DNA from: Halodesulfovibrio sp. | GTDB taxonomy: Bacteria > Desulfobacterota > Desulfovibrionia > Desulfovibrionales > Desulfovibrionaceae | Assembly: GCA_003252375.1 (NCBI GenBank) | Contig: QKEJ01000041.1 | Coordinates: 1-32,434 of the forward strand | Direction: 5' to 3' | Length of the DNA: 32,434 nt | The notes under the pieces: model-generated | The model's database searches: none | Seen by the model: only the letters and a program-made list of their open reading frames with translations | Told to the model about the DNA's origin: nothing | Part shown: positions 5,392-22,392 of the stretch, piece by piece | Layout: every line of letters starts with the position of its first letter | Numbering within the stretch: position 1 is the first letter of the stretch | Position numbers and translations under genes: made by a program

Positions 5392-6900
5392 CTATTCGGA
5401 AATGCCGTTGCGCACGATTTCCAGCATGGTGCGCACGGCGAAACCGGTGCCGCCGGGCACGGCCAGCGGGGATTTCTTGGACTTGTAGGCCGGGCCCGCA
5501 ATGTCCAGATGCGCCCAGCGAACGCCCTCGTTGATGAACTGCTTGAGGAACAGGGCCGCGTTAATGGCACCGCCCTCGCGTCCGCCCACGTTCATCATGT
5601 CGGCCACCTCGGACTTGAGGGGTTCGAAGAACATGTCCCACAAGGGCATGGGCCAGAATTTGTCGCCCACCCGGACGCCGGTGTCCTGAATCTGCTTGGA
5701 GAGCGTCTCGTCCGTGGCGAACACGGCGGCGACCTCGGTGCCCAGTGCGACCACGCAGGCCCCGGTGAGGGTGGCCAGATCGATGAGGGCGGCCGGGGAG
5801 TATTCCTGCTGGGCCCAGGTCAGGGCGTCGCAGAGGATGAGACGGCCTTCGGCGTCGGTGTTGATCACCTCAACGGTCTTGCCGGAAAGGGTCTTCACCA
5901 CGTCGCCGGGGCGGGTGGCGCGTCCGTCGGGCATGTTCTCCGTGCACGGGGCAATGCCCACCACGCGGCGCTGGATGTCGGAGTTGCCGAGGGCCTCGAA
6001 GAGCCCGATCACGGCGCCCGCTCCTGCCATGTCGCACTTCATTTCATGCATGCTGGCGCTGGGCTTCAGGGAGATGCCGCCCGTATCAAAGGTGACGCCC
6101 TTGCCCACGAAGACGATGGGGGCGTCCTTTTCGGTGCCCTTGGGGGCGTATTCCATGACCAGCAGCTTGGCCTGCTCCTCGGCGCCCTTGAACACGGACT
6201 CGAAGGCGCCCATGCCCATGGCGGCGAGGTCGGGGCCGTTGATGGCGCGCACGGCAAAGCCGTACTTGCGCCCCATGGCTTCGGCCGTTTCCACGAGGTG
6301 GGAAGGCGTGACGATGTTGGCGGGGCCGTTCACCAGGTTCCGGGTGGCCATGACGCCGATGGCGGCGGCTTCCCCCCGGCGGGCCGCAGCGTGGATCGCA
6401 TCCGGGAAATTCTCTTCCGTGGAGAGCAGGGCGGCCCAGCGTGGTGAGTGCGCGGGTTCGTCCTGCGTGGTCTTCAGTTCGTCATAGGTGTAGAGCGAGA
6501 GCAGCATGGCGAGCACGGTCTCTTCCACCAGCACGGTGTCCTTGGGCTCCATGTCCTTGAAGACTTCCAGCGGTACTGCGCAGGTGTCCACCTTCAGCTC
6601 GCGGCACTTCTGCATGGCGGTGGCCACGGCGTGGCGCAGGGTTTCCAGCGTGAACTTTGCGCGTTCGCCAAGGCCCACGGCAATGCAGCGCGGCAGGGGA
6701 ATATCGGGGTGCCCGTACATGACCACCACCTGATTCTTTTCGCCGCGGAAGTCGTGGCGGGCAGGGGTGATGGTGATCCACGGCACGGCATCGGCCAGCG
6801 CCGGGATATGGTCGAGCAGCTGCTCATCCTTGAAGCCGAAGACAATCACGGTATTGGCGCGCCAGTCCGAGGACGGGGCCTGCTGAAAACGGATATCCAT
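5392..6900 (-). CDS. pepA: Leucyl aminopeptidase (M17 family)
   Basis: 502 residues from the ATG at 6900, which has GGAGG 6 bases upstream; an upstream in-frame ATG at 7014 would add a Pro-rich stretch foreign to the family. This cytosolic zinc/manganese exopeptidase releases N-terminal residues from peptides. The catalytic domain shows VGKGVTFDTGGISLKP (metal and catalytic Lys, about residue 265) and the family signature NTDAEGRL (about residue 350). The N-terminal macro-like domain is present (about residues 1-170). The gene leads a two-gene operon with the ABM-domain protein. A sigma-70-like promoter is visible about 90 bases upstream. Some M17 proteins also bind DNA; nothing here tests that. 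Confidence 0.95.
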   Translation of the reverse strand: MDIRFQQAPSSDWRANTVIVFGFKDEQLLDHIPALADAVPWITITPARHDFRGEKNQVVVMYGHPDIPLPRCIAVGLGERAKFTLETLRHAVATAMQKCRELKVDTCAVPLEVFKDMEPKDTVLVEETVLAMLLSLYTYDELKTTQDEPAHSPRWAALLSTEENFPDAIHAAARRGEAAAIGVMATRNLVNGPANIVTPSHLVETAEAMGRKYGFAVRAINGPDLAAMGMGAFESVFKGAEEQAKLLVMEYAPKGTEKDAPIVFVGKGVTFDTGGISLKPSASMHEMKCDMAGAGAVIGLFEALGNSDIQRRVVGIAPCTENMPDGRATRPGDVVKTLSGKTVEVINTDAEGRLILCDALTWAQQEYSPAALIDLATLTGACVVALGTEVAAVFATDETLSKQIQDTGVRVGDKFWPMPLWDMFFEPLKSEVADMMNVGGREGGAINAALFLKQFINEGVRWAHLDIAGPAYKSKKSPLAVPGGTGFAVRTMLEIVRNGISE

Positions 6901-6990
6901 GGGAAGCCTCCAAATATGATGTCCGGCCGGGGCTGCCGGCAAGGGTCGCGGATATGGCGGCCGGATGCCGCCTCTGTCATGAGTTCCGGG

Positions 6991-7019
6991 AGTATAGGCA
7001 TTGGCAGGCGGCACGTCCA
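6991..7019 (-). promoter_or_regulatory. Candidate pepA promoter
   Basis: On the minus strand TGGACG (7014-7019) is followed after 17 bases by TATACT (6991-6996), a good sigma-70 fit. It implies a leader of about 85 bases before the pepA ATG. Confidence 0.45.
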
Positions 7020-7117
7020 GTGCGATTCCCGCGCGCGCAGGAGCCTGGCCCGTTACGGACCGGGAGATGCTGCGGCGCAGGCTTGCATGAAACCGGACTC
7101 GGGAGTACTAGACGCGT

Positions 7118-8458
7118 ATGAGAAGGAAATATCTGTCTCCTTTCGTGCTCCCTGTGGTGGCCTTTGCGCTGACCATTATCGTGGGAGCCGTCCTGCTGGA
7201 GGCAACATCGGTGCTCCCGGGCGGTCTGGCCTGGGTGGACGCCCTGTTTACGGCAACATCGGCCGTCTGCGTGACCGGGCTTGTCACGGTGGACACGGCC
7301 ACCGCTTTCGGGCGGGAGGGGCACTGGGTGTTGCTGGGCCTTATCCAGCTGGGCGGTCTGGGAATCATGACCTACTCGAGCCTCGTATTCTATCTGTGGC
7401 GCCAGCGGGTTTCCCTTACCGACCGACTCGCCGTGGGGCAGGCCTTGCTGCATGATCCGTCGTTCCATCTCGGGAACTTCCTTGTACGTATGGTGCGCAT
7501 GGTGCTGGTCATCGAGCTGTTCGGCGCCCTCTGGCTCTATGCGCTGGAACCCGCGGTGCTCGGCCCCTTCGGCGCCCTGTTTCACGCCATATCCGCCTTC
7601 TGCAATGCCGGATTCGCCCTGTTTCCGGATAGCCTGGAGCGTTGGCAGTTTTCGCCCGGCATGAACGTCGTCATCATGTTGCTCATCACGCTGGGCGGGC
7701 TGGGCTTCGCCGTGATTGACGAGTGCATTCTCGTGTTGCGTGGTACGGACCTTGGTGTACGCGGTCTCAGCTATCCGGCACGCATGGTGCTGAAGACGTC
7801 GGCCCTGCTGACCTTCGGCGGTGCGGTACTCATATTCTTTGCGGAGGTCATGGGCGGCATGCAGAACGGGGCTGTCATGGACTCGGCGCTGGCCGCGCTC
7901 TTCCAGTCCGTTACCTGCCGGACCGCAGGGTTCAATACGCTCGATATCGCCAGCATGACCAACGTGTCGCTCATGCTCATGATCTTCCTCATGTTTGTGG
8001 GCGGCTCTCCCGGGTCGTGTGCGGGCGGCATCAAGACGACCACCCTGCGGGTGCTGTGGGCCTTCATGGTATCGCAGTTCCGGGGACGGTCGCAGGTGGT
8101 GGTTGAGGGGCGCGCCGTGCACTCCCTGAACCTGAACAAGGCCTTTGCCCTGTTCTTCACGGCCACGTGCAGCATCCTGCTGGCCACGCTGATTCTTTCC
8201 ATCTCGGAAGGCGGGGACATGCCGCATACCATGGTGCGCGGGCAGCTCATGGACTTTCTGTTCGAAGCCACCTCCGCCTTTGCCACGGTAGGGCTCAGTA
8301 CCGGGGTGACGCCGACGCTGTCCGTCACCGGCAAGCTGTGCCTGACCGCATTGATGTTTCTGGGGCGTATCGGCCCCATCTGGCTGCTGACGGCATTGCA
8401 GCAGATGCAGTCCGAAGTGCGCTACCGCTGGCCCGAGGGCGACATGCCCGTGGGCTAG
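7118..8458 (+). CDS. ktrB: Potassium uptake channel subunit, KtrB/TrkH family
   Basis: 446 residues; an inner-membrane K+-translocating subunit built from four membrane-pore-membrane repeats. The four pore loops with their filter glycines are all visible: TSAVCVTGL (47-55), SAFCNAGF (about 159-166), TCRTAGF (about 265-271) and TSAFATVGLSTG (about 382-393). The length is nearer KtrB than the longer TrkH of E. coli. The partner regulatory subunit follows 111 bases downstream. No good ribosome-binding site lies close to the ATG (GGGAG is 12-13 bases away), so the exact start is less certain than the identity. Confidence 0.92.
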   Translation: MRRKYLSPFVLPVVAFALTIIVGAVLLEATSVLPGGLAWVDALFTATSAVCVTGLVTVDTATAFGREGHWVLLGLIQLGGLGIMTYSSLVFYLWRQRVSLTDRLAVGQALLHDPSFHLGNFLVRMVRMVLVIELFGALWLYALEPAVLGPFGALFHAISAFCNAGFALFPDSLERWQFSPGMNVVIMLLITLGGLGFAVIDECILVLRGTDLGVRGLSYPARMVLKTSALLTFGGAVLIFFAEVMGGMQNGAVMDSALAALFQSVTCRTAGFNTLDIASMTNVSLMLMIFLMFVGGSPGSCAGGIKTTTLRVLWAFMVSQFRGRSQVVVEGRAVHSLNLNKAFALFFTATCSILLATLILSISEGGDMPHTMVRGQLMDFLFEATSAFATVGLSTGVTPTLSVTGKLCLTALMFLGRIGPIWLLTALQQMQSEVRYRWPEGDMPVG

Positions 8459-8471
8459 CGGCGGAGAGTGT

Positions 8472-8512
8472 GATATTCCCTGTTCCGGAGCCGCAGTGCG
8501 GCCCGGGATATC
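8472..8512 (+). other. Hairpin between the two K+ transport genes
   Basis: GATATTCCC (8472-8480) can pair with GGGATATC (8505-8512) with one bulged base, enclosing a second small stem CCGC-AGT-GCGG (8491-8501). There is no T run, so this is not an ordinary terminator. It could affect mRNA processing or subunit ratio. Confidence 0.35.
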
Positions 8513-8569
8513 GAGATAGGCCGAAGGGCCATGAGCCGGCGGATGCCGGCAAGACAAGGCAGGAATTGC

Positions 8570-9223
8570 ATGAAGACGAAAATGGAAATCGGCGTTATCG
8601 GGCTCGGCAAGTTCGGGCTGCCCCTTGCGCGGGCTTTGGCGGAAAAGGGCCACTCCGTGGTCGGTATCGACGGGAGTGAAAGCCGGATACGGCAGGCGCA
8701 GAACGTCCTCGACCTTGTCTATGTGGCTGACGCCACGGACAGCACCGCCCTGCGCCAGCTGCGCATTCAGGATCTGGACATGGTGATCGTGAGCGTGGGC
8801 TCCAGCATGGAGGCCTCCATCCTCATCGTGTTCAACCTGCTGGAGATGGGCATGCGCAAGCTGGCCGTGAAGGCGGTGACGCCGGAACACAAGAAGATTC
8901 TCATGCGGCTCGGCGTGGAGAACGTCATCCAGCCGGAGCAGGACGCCGCCCTTGTGCTGGCCCACCGCATCTCCAACCCCGGCATGCTCGACCTGCTGCA
9001 GCTTGGCGGCGGTGTGCTGTTGCAGGAGCTTGAGGTGGACAAGTGGGAAGGCCGGACGCTGATGGAGCTGCAGCTTACCGCCAAGGGCATCATGGTGGTG
9101 GCCGTGCGCGAAGCGGGCGGAGCGGACTACTCCTTCGTGCCCGCTGCCGACAAGCCGCTGGCCAAGGGGGAGACCCTTGCCGTCATCGGCAAGGAAAAGG
9201 ACGTGCTCAGTCTCGTTCCGTAG
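8570..9223 (+). CDS. ktrA: K+ uptake regulatory subunit, KtrA/TrkA family (RCK_N and RCK_C)
   Basis: 217 residues from the ATG at 8570, which is preceded by AGGA at 6 bases; 13 codons of the longer frame are dropped. The N-terminal RCK domain is a Rossmann fold with GLGKFG (11-16) and an acidic residue at the end of the second strand (Asp34) that contacts the nucleotide. The C-terminal half (about 135-217) is an RCK_C domain, with LPLA-type strands such as GIMVVAVREAG and GETLAVIGKEKDV. These proteins form a cytosolic ring on KtrB and gate it in response to ATP/ADP or NAD(H). Located directly downstream of its channel subunit. Confidence 0.92.
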   Translation: MKTKMEIGVIGLGKFGLPLARALAEKGHSVVGIDGSESRIRQAQNVLDLVYVADATDSTALRQLRIQDLDMVIVSVGSSMEASILIVFNLLEMGMRKLAVKAVTPEHKKILMRLGVENVIQPEQDAALVLAHRISNPGMLDLLQLGGGVLLQELEVDKWEGRTLMELQLTAKGIMVVAVREAGGADYSFVPAADKPLAKGETLAVIGKEKDVLSLVP

Positions 9224-9386
9224 CCCCTGACAGCCGTTCCTGCGGGGAGAAGGGTGTTGCGCTCTGCGCAGCTATTTGTCATCGTTCATCATTCGTGTTG
9301 CATTCGCCGAATCGAATGGTTGAACGGTCCGTGCCCCGGCATGAGGATGCCGCTCCCGGAACAACCCCCTTTCAGGCAGGTCTCTC

Positions 9387-11027
9387 GTGAATACGTTGAT
9401 CATCAATCTGACCCGTTTCGGCGACCTGCTGCAGACGCAGCCCGTCATCTCGGGATTCGCCCGGGCCGGTCATCGGGTGGGGCTGGTCTGTCTCGACAAT
9501 TTTGCTCCCGCCACGGCGCTGCTTGAGGATGTGGACGCCGTGTATCCCCTGTCCGGGGGCAGCCTGCTGGCTGCGCTGGATGCGGACTGGCGCACTGCCC
9601 TTGGCGGCGTGTGGCAATGGGGTGATGCGGTGGTGGACGACTTTGTCCCGGAGTCCCTGCTCAACCTGACCGCCACGACCAGCGTGCGTCTGCTGGCCTC
9701 CCATCTTTCCGGCAAGGCAGCCGGTTCCGGCGATACGGAAACAGACCGCCTGCGGGGATTCGGTCTGGATACGTTCGGCTTCAGCATGAACAGCGATCCG
9801 TGGACCACCTTCCTGCAGGCCTCCACCCGTCTGCGCGGATGCAGCCCCTTCAATCTTGTGGATTTGTACTGGATGGCTTCCGGCCTTGGGGCCGGCCCGC
9901 GCGTCTATGCCCTGCGTGAGCCGCTTGACGAGCATCGGGATGCGGCCCGGGCGCTGTTGCAGCAGGCCGTGGACGCCCTTGGTCCGGAAGGGCGAAAGGT
10001 GCGTGGTTTTGTGGGCCTACAGCTCGGCGCAAGCGAGGACCGTCGCCGTTGGCCGCTGGCCCATTTTGCCGAGCTGGGTGACCGGTTGTGGGCCGAGGAA
10101 GGACTGCTGCCCGTGCTGCTGGGTGCAGGGAGCGAACGTCATCTGGCTGAGGGCTACGCCCGGCATGCCTCTCTGCCCCATGCGGACCTGGTGGGCAAGA
10201 CGGGCTTGCCCGTTCTGGCCGCCGCGCTCAGGGAACTGCGCCTTCTGGTCACCAATGATACAGGCACCATGCATCTTGCGGCCGGGCTGGGTGTTCCCAT
10301 TCTGGCCGTGTTTCTGGCCACGGCGCAGCCGTGGGATACCGGCCCGTACCGGGAGGGGAGCTGTTCGCTCGAGCCCGACCTTGCCTGTCACCCCTGTCCG
10401 TTCGGCACGGTGTGCCCGCACGACCTTGCCTGCCGTACCCGCATCTCGTCGGCAACGATGTTCGCCCTTGTCCGTGCATGGCTGCAGGGCGGAGCCTGGC
10501 ATGCCCCGACCTCCGGCGAGGCGCGCATCTGGGAAACCCGGCGGGACGATGCCGGGTTCATGGACCTGCAGTCCCTCTCCGGACATGAGGAGACGGACCG
10601 GACACGCTGGGTGCGCCAGCAGCGATTCTTCTATGGTCAATTTCTTGACCGTGTCCCGGCTTCCCGTATGGGTGAGGGGGCGTTGCGGACCATTGCCCCG
10701 CCTCCGTGGCCTGTGTCGCTGTCCGCAGACAGGCAGGCAGCGGTGGAGGGCGAACTGGAGCAATCCGTCATGCTGCTGCACCTGCTTGCCGAGCAGGGAC
10801 GGGTGCTGGCCGTCCGGCCCACGGATACGACCAAACAGCGATTCCTCGGTACCTGGCAGCGGTTGCAGACCCTGTGGGATAACAGTGCAATGCTGAATGT
10901 CCTCGGGTATTTGTGGATGTGCGAGTCGCAGGAGGCCGGCAACGACCTGTCGGCCATGCTGACGCTTGCGGAGCAGTATCACCGCCTTGCAACCGTATGG
11001 CTTTCCGCCATGCGGGGCGTTTTGTAA
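9387..11027 (+). CDS. Glycosyltransferase family 9 (heptosyltransferase-like) with a long C-terminal extension
   Basis: 546 residues from a GTG start at 9387 preceded by a weak AGG. Residues 1 to about 370 are a GT9 (GT-B fold) enzyme: MNTLIINLTRFGDLLQTQPV at the start, GLQLGASEDRRRWP (about 210-223) and the donor-binding VTNDTGTMHLAAGLGVP (288-304). A cysteine cluster follows (C334, C337, C343, C349), as seen in heptosyltransferases. These enzymes add heptose or related sugars to lipopolysaccharide core or other surface glycans. The last roughly 175 residues are not part of the usual fold; they look mostly helical and I do not recognise them. The place next to flagellar genes raises the possibility of flagellar or cell-surface glycosylation, but this is inference. 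Confidence 0.85.
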   Translation: MNTLIINLTRFGDLLQTQPVISGFARAGHRVGLVCLDNFAPATALLEDVDAVYPLSGGSLLAALDADWRTALGGVWQWGDAVVDDFVPESLLNLTATTSVRLLASHLSGKAAGSGDTETDRLRGFGLDTFGFSMNSDPWTTFLQASTRLRGCSPFNLVDLYWMASGLGAGPRVYALREPLDEHRDAARALLQQAVDALGPEGRKVRGFVGLQLGASEDRRRWPLAHFAELGDRLWAEEGLLPVLLGAGSERHLAEGYARHASLPHADLVGKTGLPVLAAALRELRLLVTNDTGTMHLAAGLGVPILAVFLATAQPWDTGPYREGSCSLEPDLACHPCPFGTVCPHDLACRTRISSATMFALVRAWLQGGAWHAPTSGEARIWETRRDDAGFMDLQSLSGHEETDRTRWVRQQRFFYGQFLDRVPASRMGEGALRTIAPPPWPVSLSADRQAAVEGELEQSVMLLHLLAEQGRVLAVRPTDTTKQRFLGTWQRLQTLWDNSAMLNVLGYLWMCESQEAGNDLSAMLTLAEQYHRLATVWLSAMRGVL

Positions 11028-14215: not shown

Positions 14216-14977
14216 ATGGATTTGGCAACCATACTTGGCATCGTCCTTTCCTTCGGGCTGGTTGTGGCCGCTATCATGTCGGGCAGCAGTCTGTTCATCT
14301 TCATTGACGGTGCGTCGCTGGCAATCGTGCTTGGTGGCACCATCGGGGCCTTGCTGGTGAACTATCCCCTCGCCCGTGTGCTTGCCCTGATCGGGGTGAC
14401 CAAGAAGACCCTGTTCGCCAAGCCGCAAAGCCCCACCGCCATCATCGAGCAGTTCATGGACTACGCCAACCGTGCGCGCCGCGAGGGCATCCTCTCGCTG
14501 GAGCCCATCATCAAGGAAATTGATGACGCCTACCTGCGCAAGGGGTTGCAGCTGACCGTGGACGGCCTTGAGCCGCAGTCCATTCAGGAAATCATGGAGA
14601 CGGAAATCTCCAATATCGAGGGGCGCCACGAGAACGGGCAGGAGATCATGAAGGCGCTGGGCGAGTATGCTCCGGCGCTGGGCATGATCGGTACGGTTAT
14701 CGGTCTGGTGCAGATGCTGCAGACCATGAGCGACCCCAGTTCCATCGGCCCGGCCATGGCCGTTGCACTGATCACCACATTTTACGGCGCGGTACTGGCC
14801 AACCTTGTGTTCAACCCCATGGCCGGCAAGCTGAAGACGCGGAGCAAGGATGAAATCCTGATCAAGGAAATGCAGATGGAGGGCATACTGGCCATCTCCA
14901 AGGGGGAAAACCCCCGCATTATCCAGGAAAAGCTTTCGAGCTTCCAGCCGCCCAAGGAGCGGAAGACGGAAGGGTAG
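14216..14977 (+). CDS. motA: Flagellar motor stator protein MotA
   Basis: 253 residues, four predicted membrane helices with the large cytoplasmic loop between helices 2 and 3. It forms the ion-conducting stator with MotB and pushes on the rotor protein FliG. Family landmarks are an early GSSLFIFIDGASLAIVLGGT, the loop with NRARREGILSLE, and helix 3 EYAPALGMIGTVIGLVQML with its conserved Pro and Gly. Size and sequence are closer to the PomA/MotA type of about 250 residues than to the longer E. coli MotA. Whether it carries H+ or Na+ cannot be told from this reading. Followed 15 bases later by the first motB. Confidence 0.94.
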   Translation: MDLATILGIVLSFGLVVAAIMSGSSLFIFIDGASLAIVLGGTIGALLVNYPLARVLALIGVTKKTLFAKPQSPTAIIEQFMDYANRARREGILSLEPIIKEIDDAYLRKGLQLTVDGLEPQSIQEIMETEISNIEGRHENGQEIMKALGEYAPALGMIGTVIGLVQMLQTMSDPSSIGPAMAVALITTFYGAVLANLVFNPMAGKLKTRSKDEILIKEMQMEGILAISKGENPRIIQEKLSSFQPPKERKTEG

Positions 14978-14992
14978 CCGGCGGAGTGGCAT

Positions 14993-15841
14993 ATGGCGCG
15001 ACGCAAAAAGAAAAAAGCTGAGGAAGGTGGGGCTGCATGGCTCATTACCTTCTCGGACATGATGACCCTCATGCTCACGTTCTTCGTGTTGCTGGTGAGC
15101 ATGGCCGTCATTGACGAGCGTCGCAAGCTGACCGTGCTGAATTCCATTTCCGGCGCCTTTGGCGAAGGAGTGGGCAGCTTCAACCCCAAGTCGATCCGGA
15201 ACCAGTCCCGTCTGATCGAGCCGGGGGCCATGGACGACATGGAGACGGATTCGCTGGAGCCGCTCCGTGACCTGTTGTGGGACGACCAGCGCGGCGATTT
15301 GAATTACCAGGAAAACCAGTTCGTGCAGGTCCTCTCCATCAGCGACGAGGTGCTGTTTGAACCTGGGACAGCCCAGCTCAGCATTTCGGGTATCCGGCTC
15401 ATGAATCGCATGCTGCCCTGGCTGCTGCGCGTGGAGCACCCGCTGCTGCTGGCCGGTCACACCGCCGGCAAGCGAGAGGAAATGGGCAGGGACTACAAGG
15501 TGGGCCTGGGAGAGAAGGATCTCGTGTCCCCCATGTGGGAGCTTTCGTTTCTGCGGGTCATGGGGCTGTATCGGTATCTCACCGGACGCGGGGTGCCTCC
15601 CTCGCGGCTGACGGTGGAGGGGTTCGGCGCGAACAGGCCGCGCTGGACAGAGAAGACGCCCGAGGGCAGGCGGATGAACCGCCGCGTGGACATCGTGCTC
15701 GACAAGCGCAACAAGGAATGGATCGACAAGATCGAGCAGTTGCGCCAGAAGAAGGACAGGCGTCCCGGGACGTTCAACTACAAGGATTTTCGTTTCCGGG
15801 TGGGCACGCAGCCTGACCAGGAAACCGGGGCAGGGCAGTAG
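14993..15841 (+). CDS. motB: MotB-type stator protein 1 (divergent OmpA-like domain)
   Basis: 282 residues. A short basic N-terminus is followed by the single membrane helix WLITFSDMMTLMLTFFVLLV with the ion-binding Asp at residue 22. The periplasmic part ends in an OmpA/MotB-like domain (about 110-250) with LSFLRVMGLYRYL, GFGANRP and NRRVDIVL. The peptidoglycan-contact region is unusual: where most OmpA domains have GH[ST]D, this has GHTAGKREE, and a long insert follows before the LS..R motif. This may weaken or change cell-wall binding. A lysine/arginine-rich tail follows. A second, more typical motB starts 2 bases after the stop codon. Confidence 0.9.
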   Translation: MARRKKKKAEEGGAAWLITFSDMMTLMLTFFVLLVSMAVIDERRKLTVLNSISGAFGEGVGSFNPKSIRNQSRLIEPGAMDDMETDSLEPLRDLLWDDQRGDLNYQENQFVQVLSISDEVLFEPGTAQLSISGIRLMNRMLPWLLRVEHPLLLAGHTAGKREEMGRDYKVGLGEKDLVSPMWELSFLRVMGLYRYLTGRGVPPSRLTVEGFGANRPRWTEKTPEGRRMNRRVDIVLDKRNKEWIDKIEQLRQKKDRRPGTFNYKDFRFRVGTQPDQETGAGQ

Positions 15842-15843
15842 CC

Positions 15844-16575
15844 ATGGCCCGCAAGAAAAAGGATTCGGGCGGCGGCGGTGGTACGCCGGCATGGTTGATC
15901 ACCTTTTCGGACCTGGTGACCCTGCTGCTGACATTTTTCGTACTGCTGCTGAGCATGGCCTCCATGGACCGGGTGATGCTGGCCAAGATGAGTCCCTTTG
16001 AGAGCCGGACGGATTCGGTGACCTATCAGGGAGCGGGCAAGGTGCCCTCGCGCATTTCGGTTCTGCTGAAACTGCTGGAAGACCCGGTTTCGGCACTGGA
16101 CAAGCCCGAGCGAGTGAAGGATCTGCTGTTTCCGGACGCGGTGCTGCCGCCGGATCTTGACGTGAGTACGCTGGACCGGAACCTGCGGATACTGGAAAAG
16201 CCCGAGGGCGTGGCCATAGCGCTGACCAACGATCTGCTGTTCACCCCCGGAAGCTACGAGCTGAGCCCGGCGGCCAAGAAGCTGCTGGAGCAGGTGGTGC
16301 TGATGCTGCAGTACTCGTCGGCGGATTGCAATATCGCGGGCCATTCGGATTCGTTGCCGGGGCCGGGCATGGACAATTACGTGTTGTCCGGGAAACGTGC
16401 CCTCTCGGTCCTGGAATTTTTCATCGCCTCCGGGTTGGAGCCGAACCGTTTTTCCATAAGCGGATACGGACCGGACAAACCCCTGGCGGACAATACCACC
16501 GAGGCCGGGCGTGCGTTGAACCGGCGGGTGGAGATTCTGCTCAAGACCACCCAGTGGATGGGACGCTACATGTAG
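15844..16575 (+). CDS. motB: MotB-type stator protein 2 (canonical OmpA-like domain)
   Basis: 243 residues. The N-terminus is basic and glycine-rich, followed by WLITFSDLVTLLLTFFVLLL with the ion-binding Asp at residue 23. The OmpA-like domain (about 120-240) has the standard peptidoglycan-binding elements IAGHSDSLPG, YVLSGKRALSVLEFF, ISGYGPDKP and GRALNRRVEILL. It is a clear paralogue of the preceding gene, with no more than a 2-base gap between them, so the two are translationally coupled. Both have a complete membrane helix with the essential aspartate; either could pair with the single MotA encoded upstream. Confidence 0.92.
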   Translation: MARKKKDSGGGGGTPAWLITFSDLVTLLLTFFVLLLSMASMDRVMLAKMSPFESRTDSVTYQGAGKVPSRISVLLKLLEDPVSALDKPERVKDLLFPDAVLPPDLDVSTLDRNLRILEKPEGVAIALTNDLLFTPGSYELSPAAKKLLEQVVLMLQYSSADCNIAGHSDSLPGPGMDNYVLSGKRALSVLEFFIASGLEPNRFSISGYGPDKPLADNTTEAGRALNRRVEILLKTTQWMGRYM

Positions 16576-17180: not shown

Positions 17181-17768
17181 ATGTCAGACGAACTCGATCA
17201 GGACGAATTGGCGGCGCAGTGGGCCGCGGCGTTGGAAAATCAGGAAGAGGGCGATCCCGATCCCTTTGAAGCGGCAGCTGCCGCAGCGGCTGCGCCAGCA
17301 GCCCCAGCTGCTCCTGCTGCCCCTGCGGCAGGCGGGGGCACACCCGACGACGAACAACTGGCCGCCGAGTGGGCTGCCGCACTTGCCTCTGATGAGCAGG
17401 ACCAGATGAAGAAGGAAAAGGAACAGGCGTTTTTTGCTTCCGCAGCACGGGAGGCGGCCTTCAAGGACCTGACGGAAGAGGCCAAGGGCTTCCGTCCCGA
17501 CAGTGGCAAGCGGGAGCTGGACTTCATCCTCGATATTCCGCTCGACGTTTCCGCCGAGCTGGGACGTACCCGCCTGCTCATCAACGAACTGCTCCAGCTG
17601 GGGCAGGGGTCCGTGGTGGAGCTGAACAAGCTGGCCGGTGAGCCGCTGGAGATCTTCGTGAACGGCAAGCTGGTGGCGCGCGGCGAAGCCGTCGTCATCA
17701 ACGAGAAGTTCGGTGTGCGTCTTACCGATATCATCAGCCCCATCGAGCGGGTCAAGCAGCTTGCGTAA
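17181..17768 (+). CDS. fliN: Flagellar motor switch protein FliN (long form with duplicated N-terminal motif)
   Basis: 195 residues, longer than the 130-140 of enteric FliN. The C-terminal SpoA domain (about 112-190) is standard: LDIPLDVSAELGRTRLLINELLQL, GSVVELNK, GEPLEIFVNGKLVARGEAVVINEKFGVRLTDI. It forms the bottom of the C ring and helps dock the export ATPase complex. The N-terminal 80 residues carry two copies of one motif, ELAAQWAAAL (9-18) and QLAAEWAAAL (59-68), joined by an Ala/Pro linker. Enteric FliN has one similar stretch (LWAEAL). AAGGAAGG precedes the ATG. No fliM is in the window. Confidence 0.94.
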   Translation: MSDELDQDELAAQWAAALENQEEGDPDPFEAAAAAAAAPAAPAAPAAPAAGGGTPDDEQLAAEWAAALASDEQDQMKKEKEQAFFASAAREAAFKDLTEEAKGFRPDSGKRELDFILDIPLDVSAELGRTRLLINELLQLGQGSVVELNKLAGEPLEIFVNGKLVARGEAVVINEKFGVRLTDIISPIERVKQLA

Positions 17769-19438: not shown

Positions 19439-19470
19439 TAAAAAAAAGGCCGCCCTGGGGGCGGCCTTTG
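19439..19470. terminator. Bidirectional terminator between fliQ and the acidic repeat protein
   Basis: A G+C-rich stem of about 10-11 bp (19444-19454 with 19458-19468) with a very short loop. It is preceded by an A8 run that gives a long U tract for minus-strand transcripts, and it ends in TTT on the plus side. Confidence 0.88.
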
Positions 19471-19484
19471 TGCGTTGCGTTCGT

Positions 19485-21206
19485 CTATTCTTCGCCAAGC
19501 AGGGCGGAGAGCTCTTCCCGGATGATGTCTGCGGCAGCCTGAGCGGCGGCCTTGTCCAGCCCGGATCGCAGTTCTTCCTTCAGTTCGCGGCTCTGGACGT
19601 TCCAGTCCTTGTGCGTGAAGGCGGACTTCTCGAGCTGGGCGAGACGTTCGTCTATGCGCCGGTCAATGCACTCTTCGATGCGCTTCATGGCCGATCCCTC
19701 CGGAGCAAGGGCATCGTCAATGGCCAGCAGCAGGGCGGAGCGCTCGTCGTTGGCGATGCAGGCCTCGTCCTCTGCGGCGGATTCCGCGATCTTGCGGGCC
19801 ACGATGTCCTCAATGTGCTCCTCGGAGGGGCTGAGGCGCTTCTCGATGGCGTCTATGCGACGCATCAGGGCTGCCAGGTCGGCCGTTTCCGCCGTGATGT
19901 GCTCCTCGGCGTCCTCAAGGACATCGTCCAGGTCGCCGGCGTCGCTCATGACGGTGTCGTCCTCGTCCTCGCCGCTCTCTTCCAGATCATGCAGCATGGC
20001 GTCTATGTCGGCCTCCGCTTCGGCATCAAGGGGCACTTCCGAGGTGTCCCCGTCGCTCCCGGTGAGGCTGTCGAAATCGGCCTCGGCTGCCGGAGCGGTT
20101 TCCCCCATGTCCAGCAGGGCGTCCAGATCATCCAGTTCGGCACTGTCAGGGGTGGGGGCGGCATCGTCGGCCGTACCGAGAATGTCGTCCAGATCGGGAA
20201 TATCGTCCGTTTCTTCTGCGGGCCCGGCTGTTGCGGGAGCGCCGATGTCGTCGAGCAGGGCGTCCAGCTCTCCCATGTCGGGGGCATCAAGGGATTCGTT
20301 GGGATCAAATTCAAGGGGGGCGGCCGCCGCAGGTGCGGCTTCGGGCGCTGCAGCAGGGGCGGGCACTTCGTCCAGACTGTCCAGCAGGGCGTCAATGTCG
20401 TCCATGTCCGTATCCTCTGCTGCTTCGCCAGGCGCGTCGGGGGCGTCGGAAGGCGGGCTGAGGACAGCATCGCCGGCGGCGGCTTCCTCCAGCAGGGCGT
20501 CGAGGTCGGAAAGGTCGGGCAGCCCGTCGTCTTCCTGAGGTTCGGGAGCCGCTGCCCCGGACTTGGGCACTTCCATGTCCTCAATCAGGGCATCAAGCTC
20601 GGAAAAATCGATATCGGCGTCGTCGCTGTCGTCGGAGCTTGCGGCTGCGGGGGCCGCTGCCGGTTCAGGAGCATCAACGCTGTCGAGCAGGGCGTCGAGG
20701 TCCGAGGTCAGATCGTCATCGGCTTCGGAAGCGGCGGCTGGTGCGGGGGCGTCATCGTCGAGCCCGCCAAGCAGATCGTCAAGGTCTGCGGCCAGATCGT
20801 CGGTCGATTCGGCTTTGGCCGGTGCGGCTCCGTCTTCCGGGGAATCGAGGCCCCCGAGCAGGTCGTCGAGTTCGGCGGAGAAGTCGTCATCAGCGGATGC
20901 TGCGGATGCTTCGGGCGCGGGTTCGGTTCCGCTGCCGGTTTCTTCATCCAGTCCGCCGAGCAGGTCGTCCAGGTCGGATTCGAAGTCCAGTCCGGCATCG
21001 GAGGAAGCGGCTGCGGCGGGAGTATCATCGCCGCCGTCGGCAAAGAGGTCTTCGAGTTCCTTTTCGAAGTCGATCTCGCCTCCGCCCGCATCAAAAAGGT
21101 CATCTGCAGCATCCTGCATGGCCGGCGGTGATCCCTGCTCAACGATGTCCGTCAATTCAATGATGTCGTCTTCTGCATCGAAATCATGCGTATCTTTCGG
21201 TGACAT
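19485..21206 (-). CDS. Acidic, low-complexity protein with about 13 CheY-binding-like short motifs; unknown function
   Basis: 573 residues, rich in Asp, Glu and Ala; no signal peptide or membrane segment, so probably cytosolic. Residues 45-432 are a disordered Pro/Ala/Asp chain carrying about 13 spaced motifs of the form [DE][LI][DE][AD][LIVMF][LIVF]. Examples are DLDDLLGGLD (79, 112, 141), DLDALLDSVD (169), DIDALLDSLD (270) and ELDALLDDIG (313), about 22-43 residues apart. Residues about 440-573 are helical and probably coiled coil (LMRRIDAIEKRL, RRIDERLAQLEK, IIREELSALLGEE). The motifs resemble the CheY-binding peptides of FliM (EIDALL) and CheZ (VDDLLDSLGF). The gene converges on the motility operon, sharing its terminator. 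The frame is real: it has a proper start (AAGG 6 bases upstream) and a coherent composition, while the antisense frame is a shadow. I know no named family; FimV-like acidic repeats are an alternative comparison. Confidence 0.8.
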   Translation of the reverse strand: MSPKDTHDFDAEDDIIELTDIVEQGSPPAMQDAADDLFDAGGGEIDFEKELEDLFADGGDDTPAAAASSDAGLDFESDLDDLLGGLDEETGSGTEPAPEASAASADDDFSAELDDLLGGLDSPEDGAAPAKAESTDDLAADLDDLLGGLDDDAPAPAAASEADDDLTSDLDALLDSVDAPEPAAAPAAASSDDSDDADIDFSELDALIEDMEVPKSGAAAPEPQEDDGLPDLSDLDALLEEAAAGDAVLSPPSDAPDAPGEAAEDTDMDDIDALLDSLDEVPAPAAAPEAAPAAAAPLEFDPNESLDAPDMGELDALLDDIGAPATAGPAEETDDIPDLDDILGTADDAAPTPDSAELDDLDALLDMGETAPAAEADFDSLTGSDGDTSEVPLDAEAEADIDAMLHDLEESGEDEDDTVMSDAGDLDDVLEDAEEHITAETADLAALMRRIDAIEKRLSPSEEHIEDIVARKIAESAAEDEACIANDERSALLLAIDDALAPEGSAMKRIEECIDRRIDERLAQLEKSAFTHKDWNVQSRELKEELRSGLDKAAAQAAADIIREELSALLGEE

Positions 21207-21359: not shown

Positions 21360-21387
21360 AAGAGGCCGCCCTTGCGGACGGCCTCAT
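21360..21387 (-). terminator. Rho-independent terminator after cytochrome c3
   Basis: A 10-bp stem (21362-21371 with 21376-21385, one G-U pair) has a GCAA tetraloop on the minus strand and is followed by TTGCTTTAT. It lies 25 bases past the cytochrome c3 stop codon. Confidence 0.78.
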
Positions 21388-21409: not shown

Positions 21410-21799
21410 TTAAGGATGGCACTTGGAGCCCTTGCAGCCGGTCAGTTCCTTCTTCTTGGCCTTGTCGCCGCCAGCGGCTTCGGCATGGCAAGAGATACAA
21501 GTAGACATCTTTGCCTTCTTGCTGTGGATGACGTTGTAGTAGGAATCGGCCTTCTTCTTGTCAGCAGCGTCGGTGGAGTGACAGCCAGCAGTACCACACT
21601 TCTGGAAGTTTTCCTTGCCGTCGACGAGATGGTGACAGTCCACACACTTGGCAGTTTTGTGGGTGGAGTGGTTGAAGACCACGGGCTTCTTGGTGGACTG
21701 CATCTTGAGGCCATCGGCGGGAGCGTCGGCAGCAACAAGCGGCAGTGCAAAGGCCAGCGCGAATACGGCAACCAGCGCGATGAACAACTGCTTCCTCAT
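21410..21799 (-). CDS. cycA: Tetraheme cytochrome c3 (type I)
   Basis: 129 residues from the ATG at 21799, which has GGAGG 7-8 bases upstream; an in-frame ATG eight codons earlier is rejected. A Sec signal peptide (about 1-24, cleaved near VAADAPADG) sends it to the periplasm. Four heme sites occur in the classical order: CVDCH, CGTAGCH, CISCH and CKGSKCH, i.e. CX2CH, CX4CH, CX2CH, CX4CH. The distal His ligands sit in FNHSTHK, CHH and NVIH. It matches the main c3 of Desulfovibrio almost end to end. It accepts electrons from periplasmic hydrogenases and formate dehydrogenases and passes them to membrane complexes. It is the last gene of the tetrapyrrole/cytochrome cluster but has its own promoter-like sequence. 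Confidence 0.96.
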
Positions 21800-21840
21800 G
21801 AGTAAACCTCCTTCACAAGGCATGTTATGAATTTCACTCA

Positions 21841-21966: not shown

Positions 21967-22392
21967 TCAGGGGTGGCACCCCTTGCAATCGGTGGGGCCG
22001 GCCTTCTTTCCCTCTGTCTTGCGAGCCTTGTGGCAGCCGTTGCAACTGGTGGCTGCGGGCGCGTGGTAGGCGTTGCGGAAATAGGCCATGGATTTTTTGG
22101 CCGTCTTGTCCGTCGGGTTGGCAAGGTCGTGGCAGGCAGGGGCGGAGCAGGTGTAGGTTTTCGGCTGGGAGGCGAGCGTGTGGTGGCAGACCGTGCAGTC
22201 CAGTTCGCCATGCTTGGCGTGAGGGAACTGGACAACACTTTTCTTGAGCACGGCACCGGCCGGAGGCTTGATGGCAATGGGCCCTTCCGGCGGCTTGGGA
22301 GCGGCCAGAACGAGCGATGCGCATAGCACAAGCGCCAGCAGAACGACTGCCGGAATGTACCGTGTGCTGAGGGCTGAGTAAGACAGATGCAT
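21967..22392 (-). CDS. Periplasmic tetraheme cytochrome of the c3 family (atypical)
   Basis: 141 residues with a Sec signal peptide (about 1-30, PAVVLLALVLCASLVLAAPK) and a GGAGG site 6-7 bases before the ATG. Four heme-binding sites are present: CTVCH, CSAPACH, CNGCH and CKGCH, i.e. CX2CH, CX4CH, CX2CH, CX2CH. The distal His residues fit FPHAKHG, CHH and NAYHAP. It is a class III multiheme cytochrome but clearly not a duplicate of the neighbouring c3: the last site is CX2CH rather than CX4CH, and a Pro-rich stretch (PKPPEGPIAIKPPAG) opens the mature protein. The gene lies 45 bases after cbiH and upstream of cytochrome c3 on the same strand. An electron-transfer role is certain; the partner is unknown. 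Confidence 0.88.
   Translation of the reverse strand: MHLSYSALSTRYIPAVVLLALVLCASLVLAAPKPPEGPIAIKPPAGAVLKKSVVQFPHAKHGELDCTVCHHTLASQPKTYTCSAPACHDLANPTDKTAKKSMAYFRNAYHAPAATSCNGCHKARKTEGKKAGPTDCKGCHP

Follow-up and report, generated by a model that had tools for sequence, protein, structure and literature searches.

What does a long acidic protein, studded with peptides that resemble those by which CheY is docked, do beside a flagellar operon, and is it a motor protein at all? The question is raised by a 573-amino-acid (aa) open reading frame (ORF) with an ATG start at positions 19485–21206 (minus strand) of a 32,434-nucleotide stretch of Halodesulfovibrio sp. (class Desulfovibrionia, phylum Desulfobacterota; assembly GCA_003252375.1, contig QKEJ01000041.1, positions 1 to 32,434), which is the whole stretch that we analysed and is called the window here. 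From the ORF and its homologues, the protein consists of an N-terminal ELTD motif, an acidic arm with 13 hydrophobic–acidic motifs and a helical C-terminus. An initial annotation, made from the DNA letters, had interpreted it as a possible multivalent binder of phosphorylated CheY (CheY-P) or another response regulator at the adjoining motor, an interpretation that our analysis partly supports. The explanation that we favour, tentatively, is that the protein is a self-assembling, probably polar PopZ-like scaffold, the arm of which, in chemotactic species, would display FliM/CheZ-like peptides that dock CheY-P.

The pattern [DE][LI][DE][AD][LIVMF][LIVF] occurs exactly 13 times in the window protein (the initial annotation had estimated about 13), always within residues 1–435 and at spacings of 22–43 residues, compared with a mean of 0.10 and a maximum of 2 copies in 5000 shuffles of the same residues. 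From the N-terminus (residues; window positions, all on the minus strand), the copies are ELEDLF (50–55; 21042–21059), which lies within a conserved F-x-x-ELEDLF element of the N-terminal alignment, and then, placed by the pattern together with comparison with relatives, DLDDLL (78–83; 20958–20975), ELDDLL (112–117; 20856–20873), DLDDLL (141–146; 20769–20786), DLDALL (169–174; 20685–20702), ELDALI (203–208; 20583–20600), DLDALL (234–239; 20490–20507), DIDALL (270–275; 20382–20399; inside DIDALLDSLD, the copy most like CheZ and FliM), ELDALL (313–318; 20253–20270), DLDDIL (338–343; 20178–20195), DLDALL (360–365; 20112–20129), DIDAML (400–405; 19992–20009) and the weakly conserved DLDDVL (425–430; 19917–19934). 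Identity to the window protein across three close relatives is 82% for the hexamers, compared with 47% for the remainder of residues 26–435 and 50% for acidic positions outside the motifs; the motif residues are therefore kept, beyond acidity. Loss of the motif with retention of acidity, which the initial annotation had named as one outcome that would count against it, is accordingly not what these motile relatives display. Individual copies do vary: the motif at residue 169 is lost in all three close relatives, that at 425 is not retained as a motif, and that at 360 aligns with gaps and is missing from one of the three.

Wider comparison points towards the docking peptides of FliM and CheZ. 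The core D[ILV]D[AD][LI][LI] is present in 7 copies in the window protein, and 194 core instances were recovered from 44 of 62 family members from genomes not classed as CheW-less (a sample described below), with the consensus D-[LI]-D-[ADS]-L-L-x-x-[LM]-[DE]. D outnumbers E by 182 to 12 at position +2, where the EIDALL of FliM has its conserved aspartate, though the pattern allowed both, supporting the view that the motifs look more FliM/CheZ-like than acidity requires, as had been proposed from the window alone. Chance or acidity alone as the source of the motifs was rejected on the shuffles, the identity among relatives and this bias for D over E. EIDALL is the CheY-P site of FliM and FliY and docks in a groove of activated CheY flanked by helices 4 and 5, with 27 µM reported for a FliM peptide (PMC9126983); for the Caulobacter FliM peptide ...ILNQDEIDSLLG (NQDEIDSLLG), an ID-to-WA change abolishes two-hybrid interaction with the CheY-like CleA (PMC5677366). 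The family shares with EIDALL a D/E-I/L-D-A/D-L-L core with the conserved D, preceded in some members by SQD ([SGA]QDDID[AD]LL has 8 copies in total, across four members, and SQDDIDDLLAGL/SQDDIDDLLASL are present in two members). IDALLDSL of the window protein resembles the CheZ tail (taken in the form quoted in the initial annotation), and [IVL]D[AD]LLDSL, which is similarly CheZ-tail-like, occurs in five copies in four members, one of them the window. FliM and CheZ carry one docking-peptide copy each, whereas a single acidic chain of the family holds the broad motif up to ~15 times.

The family itself is defined by other parts of the protein. A protein search returned matches in 10 of 59 genomes, the window's own included, and these first relatives (408 to 1224 aa) share an N-terminal DIIELTDIVExG (DIIELTDIVEQG in the window protein, residues 14–25, positions 21132–21167, minus strand; alignment A2), the F-x-x-ELEDLF element and a C-terminal AAAxIIREELxALL helix, with A-A and R-E-E invariant across the 10 rows of the C-terminal alignment A1. 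In the window, the conserved C-terminal helix region ends in AAADIIREELSALLGEE (residues 540–573, positions 19488–19589, minus strand; alignments A1 and A4). Profiles of the two ends (E ≤ 0.01) match 236 of 247 class genomes for the C-terminus, nearly always once per genome, and 176 of 247 for the N-terminus; in a phylum-wide sample, 13 of 297 genomes match at the same threshold, 11 of them class members. The two matches outside the class (L153 and L154) were judged unrelated from reading their frames. Of 87 members, 82 match a relaxed ELTD-type pattern, and two of the five missing it (G029 and G222) show close variants. Orthologues span about 100 to 1350 residues, and the minimal ones (G103, 103 aa; G201, 131 aa; G066, 174 aa; G116, 210 aa) still have the two ends, joined by a short linker, and no more than one motif. 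Judged from these alignments, the family has its conserved core in the two ends (ELTD and IIREEI) and not in the motifs. One 1347-aa member (L134 in G229, 5880–9923, minus strand) contains several near-identical tandem copies of a ~65-aa unit (NGSIAAALTAKIEQAV...) before its C-terminus; expansion is therefore possible in the helical part and not just in the arm.

We then compared both the gene and its motifs with flagellar and chemotaxis genes. FliP (PF00813) was found in 230 of the 247 class genomes, and 13 of the 17 genomes with none contain the family (C-terminal profile A1). CheW was absent from 15 of those 17 and from 14 of 16 further genomes with a weak FliP match (E about 1e-63 to 1e-65), which we took for type III secretion (the 16 were picked by eye; G224, at 2.8e-60, and G245, at 2.0e-53, were left out). 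Profile A4 (27 of 29 C-termini; L025 and L026 were left out as near-copies of L023) detected the family in 25 of 29 CheW-less genomes. The gene persists without flagella or chemotaxis and is therefore not a motor gene as such. For the motifs, we compared 87 proteins (25 CheW-less, 17 CheW-positive and 45 classed by FliP alone), a non-random set of loci chosen across genera plus all CheW-less ones found by A4, with several members in one genome reduced to the longest, L164–L167 added after an initial pattern missed them, and L214 (G239, contig end) and L215 (G182, cut) excluded for a missing C-terminus.

The motifs track chemotaxis: they are missing from most family members in CheW-less genomes. 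The broad motif [DE][ILVF][DE].[LI][LF] is absent from 20 of 25 CheW-less members, compared with 0 of 17 CheW-positive members (Fisher's test, p = 1.1e-7) and 2 of 45 FliP-positive members (CheW untested), and the FliM-like core [DE][ILV][DE][ADSN][LI][LI] is present in 1 of 25, 13 of 17 and 31 of 45, respectively. Per residue, CheW-less members show a 41-fold fall in the FliM-like core and a 10-fold fall in the broad motif, with an unchanged acidic fraction (0.22 versus 0.24, p = 0.13; 21 versus 62 members). Length is no explanation, because among members of at least 450 aa the motif is absent from 4 of 6 CheW-less proteins (G089, 755 aa, and G157, 747 aa (L192/L193 for both); G222, 485 aa; G250, 465 aa) compared with 0 of 55 others; two long CheW-less members still have motifs (G215 has 2 and G235 has 1). 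In an RpoB tree built for 28 genomes, at least 9 changes of CheW status are needed, and in 8 branch-independent pairs the motif follows CheW in 5–6, does the opposite in 0 and is equal in 2–3, counts that vary with threshold and pairing (the class of G000, G035, G125, G167 and G180 was assigned from FliP alone; the tree does not include G143 and G010, from which no RpoB was recovered).

What, then, carries these motifs? Domain searches of the window protein gave just two Pfam rows, both below cut-offs, and none in NCBIfam, with no recognised switch or phosphatase domain in either. Against solved structures, phmmer returned just designed helical proteins and tropomyosin (E ≥ 0.19), profile A4 a single row (E = 0.59) and Foldseek, run with the low-confidence model of the window protein, nothing at E ≤ 0.001 (its top rows were meaningless spliceosome matches). 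That model, from AlphaFold2 with one input sequence (mean predicted local distance difference test score (pLDDT) 48.9, low confidence) and therefore used for helix positions only, places a short helix over each motif, with linkers mostly at pLDDT <50, and long helices in the C-terminal part. The last ~160 residues (411–571; positions 19494–19976, minus strand; ten-residue block pLDDT 44–78) are predicted to be helical, consistent with the helical C-terminus of the initial annotation.

This layout resembles that of PopZ (DUF2497, PF10691), in which a short conserved N-terminal element, an acidic disordered arm and a C-terminal helical region follow in the same order; the window protein has such an arm (31% D+E across its 573 aa; residues 1–392 mostly at pLDDT <50). 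The family ELTD motif is similar to VLELTD of Caulobacter PopZ (6xry) and VLELSD of a Sphingomonas DUF2497 protein, and a VLELTD-type motif arises by chance in 23 of 20000 shuffles. When PopZ C-termini were aligned with those of the family by hhalign, the last helix pair fell into an ungapped, common register (P 3e-4, probability just 39%), with V/I and EE-I/V common to both and, within the pair, a P in 16 of 29 family members; the score of 20.0 was reached by 0 of 300 column shuffles (mean 7.9, maximum 16.7), a control in which shuffling also destroys helix periodicity. There are differences too: the N-terminal EEILASIRRII helix of PopZ is absent from the family members read, LDALL motifs fill the family arm, which often has several times the length of that of PopZ, the family has A-A before IIREE, and the PopZ arm is both acidic and ~23% proline (PMC9512792), compared with 6.5% proline in the window protein. 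On these sequence features, the family more probably works like PopZ than is a PopZ. In PopZ, the C-terminal helices drive oligomerisation and the acidic arm tunes the condensate (PMC9512792).

In the explanation that we favour, the family protein would be a soluble, self-associating scaffold on the plan of PopZ, built from the ELTD motif, the disordered acidic arm and the C-terminal helices. The conserved ends would have a core role that non-motile species also retain, most likely that of organising a cytoplasmic, probably polar, assembly. The arm in chemotactic species would add up to ~15 short amphipathic peptides of the consensus given above, which most likely act like the N-terminal peptide of FliM and the C-terminal peptide of CheZ, folding on and weakly docking the CheY receiver domain, preferentially that of CheY-P, and we infer that many such weak peptides could concentrate or buffer CheY-P near a polar motor. 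Desulfovibrio vulgaris has a single polar flagellum (PMC3944678). More speculatively still, Desulfovibrio-type bacteria may route chemotaxis through a polar PopZ-like condensate whose chains each carry ~10 docking peptides for CheY-P; placed between the receptor arrays and the polar motor, it would be a multivalent antenna or buffer that sets the local CheY-P level, response time or noise. The peptide array might then be an evolvable addition, built onto an older pole scaffold with a housekeeping role and discarded once chemotaxis is lost. We found no description of the family, of an array of FliM-like peptides or of a multivalent CheY-P sink in the literature searched; a search for PopZ with Desulfovibrio gave no Desulfovibrio homologue among the matches listed, and EIDALL as free text gave irrelevant texts among the best 20 of 153 matches. 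PopZ-like scaffolds and FliM-like peptides are known kinds, and their combination appears to be new. If the proposal is true, a multivalent buffer of CheY-P that is distinct from the switch is available to chemotaxis. The family is in any case a class-wide, mostly single-copy, unannotated and scaffold-like one in sulfate reducers, a group for which the literature searched held no described polar organiser, and its natural motif-less and motif-rich orthologues are ready-made variants for work on multivalency, motor signalling and condensates.

Several results weigh against this proposal. On the PopZ side, the hhalign match is weak and rests on five PopZ rows (three of them close rhizobial relatives and one in part provisional); HMMER gives four PopZ C-termini 0.1–5.8 bits, compared with 11.4 for the best of 20000 shuffles; and Pfam DUF2497 (PF10691) has 0 matches in the window's own genome (G000), with the Caulobacter control positive, and none in 27 C-terminal segments at E ≤ 10. 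On the motif side, the sign test on the RpoB pairs reaches just p = 0.03–0.06, the order-level families f2 and f3 carry 0–2 motifs whether motile or non-motile, and the FliP-positive G040 and G045 have no motif. CheW-less members are also shorter (median 274 versus 617 aa), and control patterns drop per residue as well: the fall is 7-fold for the reversed motif and, for two permuted patterns, 9-fold and 17-fold (the 17-fold one overlaps the motif), so that three of five controls fall about as much as the broad motif, the other two permuted patterns falling 1.7-fold in one case and rising in the other. The FliM-like core alone falls clearly more than the controls.

Shorter members and falling controls would also be expected if the motifs were homotypic stickers: as short, acidic and amphipathic helices they would bind one another or the C-terminal helices and so tune a condensate, and shrinkage or drift of the arm would be the only reason why non-motile lineages lack them. 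Every motif does lie within a predicted short helix (AlphaFold2, low confidence), and the material state of PopZ depends on arm length and charge (PMC9512792). We nevertheless regard stickers as improbable: the four long CheW-less members named above are motif-less with acidity unchanged across the CheW-less group, and the strong preference for D at +2 is not expected from stickiness alone.

A more serious rival keeps the PopZ-like scaffold and changes the ligand. The motifs are absent where flagella as well as chemotaxis are absent, and their partner could therefore be a different motility protein; CheW and FliP are largely absent together (the 15 of 17 FliP-less genomes above), and the comparison therefore cannot separate the two. 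The motifs would then dock FlhF/FlhG, a C-ring protein, a chemoreceptor-array protein or another receiver domain, and the scaffold would position flagella or arrays at the pole and not buffer CheY-P. Several motility regulators are linked to the polar hub HubP (PMC8789113), and the polar flagellum of D. vulgaris (PMC3944678) also speaks for such a role. Even so, agreement between the consensus and the published CheY-docking peptide extends to details such as D over E at +2 and the SQDDIDDLL variants, and motifs are kept in a few genomes with CheW and little sign of flagella: 5 in G231, in which FliP was not found (a draft, 91% complete), and 3 and 1 in G209 and G217, which have just a weak FliP match. 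Overall, we consider a partner other than CheY somewhat unlikely.

HubP also raises the question of whether the protein is itself a FimV/HubP homologue, that is, a membrane- and peptidoglycan-anchored polar landmark with acidic repeats. The likeness consists of a large acidic arm, variable repeats and strong divergence between genera (PMC12918733), together with the probable polar-hub role suggested here for the family. The anchor is what differs: no LysM, FimV or TPR model in Pfam or NCBIfam matches the window protein, and no transmembrane segment was found (highest 19-residue Kyte–Doolittle mean 0.7). Membership of FimV/HubP was rejected on these grounds and can hardly be right, and the membrane or wall link of the FimV type, which the initial annotation had named as evidence against CheY binding, left no sign in the domain searches or hydropathy.

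Is the flagellar neighbourhood then informative? In the window, the family gene converges on a fliN-fliO-fliP-fliQ operon, and between fliQ and the gene lies a GC-rich 11-pair hairpin with a T-tail (19445–19469, minus strand), probably the bidirectional terminator that the initial annotation had placed there, in a scanned region with 3 terminator-like sites overall compared with 2.6 expected from shuffles. FliQ, FliP, FliN and MotA are nearby in just 3 of 28 relatives' loci (7–16 kb, some ending close to the family gene), namely those of the window's closest relatives; the convergent operon is therefore a local arrangement, and the link between the family gene and the neighbouring motor genes is incidental; that it is a motor gene by virtue of this adjacency is not supported. 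Upstream neighbours recur more widely: hemL, on the same strand, in 22 of 28 loci, cytochrome c3 in 21–22 (two c3 queries), CobJ in 18 and CbiG in 17. That the protein is dedicated to the motor operon, with the sole purpose of sinking or buffering CheY-P at the motor, would fit its FliM/CheZ-like motifs and its convergence with the stator and fliN–fliQ operon in the window and three close relatives. With hemL, cbiG, cobJ and cytochromes c3 upstream instead, and with the gene, minimal 103–210-aa forms included, present in most CheW-less genomes, we regard this as very improbable; as to the core of the protein, it is already largely refuted by the gene distribution.

Three further features of the window were observed. 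Upstream of the family gene stand two adjacent class III cytochrome c3 genes (21410–21823 and 21967–22392, minus strand), separated from it by a terminator-like hairpin (21362–21385); DVU3172, which we take to be the locus tag of a neighbour of D. vulgaris cycA, returned no literature under that tag. Positions 14216–16575 (plus strand) hold one MotA-type gene (14216–14977) followed by two MotB-type genes (14993–15841 and 15844–16575). Finally, FliN (17181–17768, plus strand) has two similar N-terminal peptides, DELAAQWAAAL and EQLAAEWAAAL, with an Ala/Pro run between them, as if duplicated.

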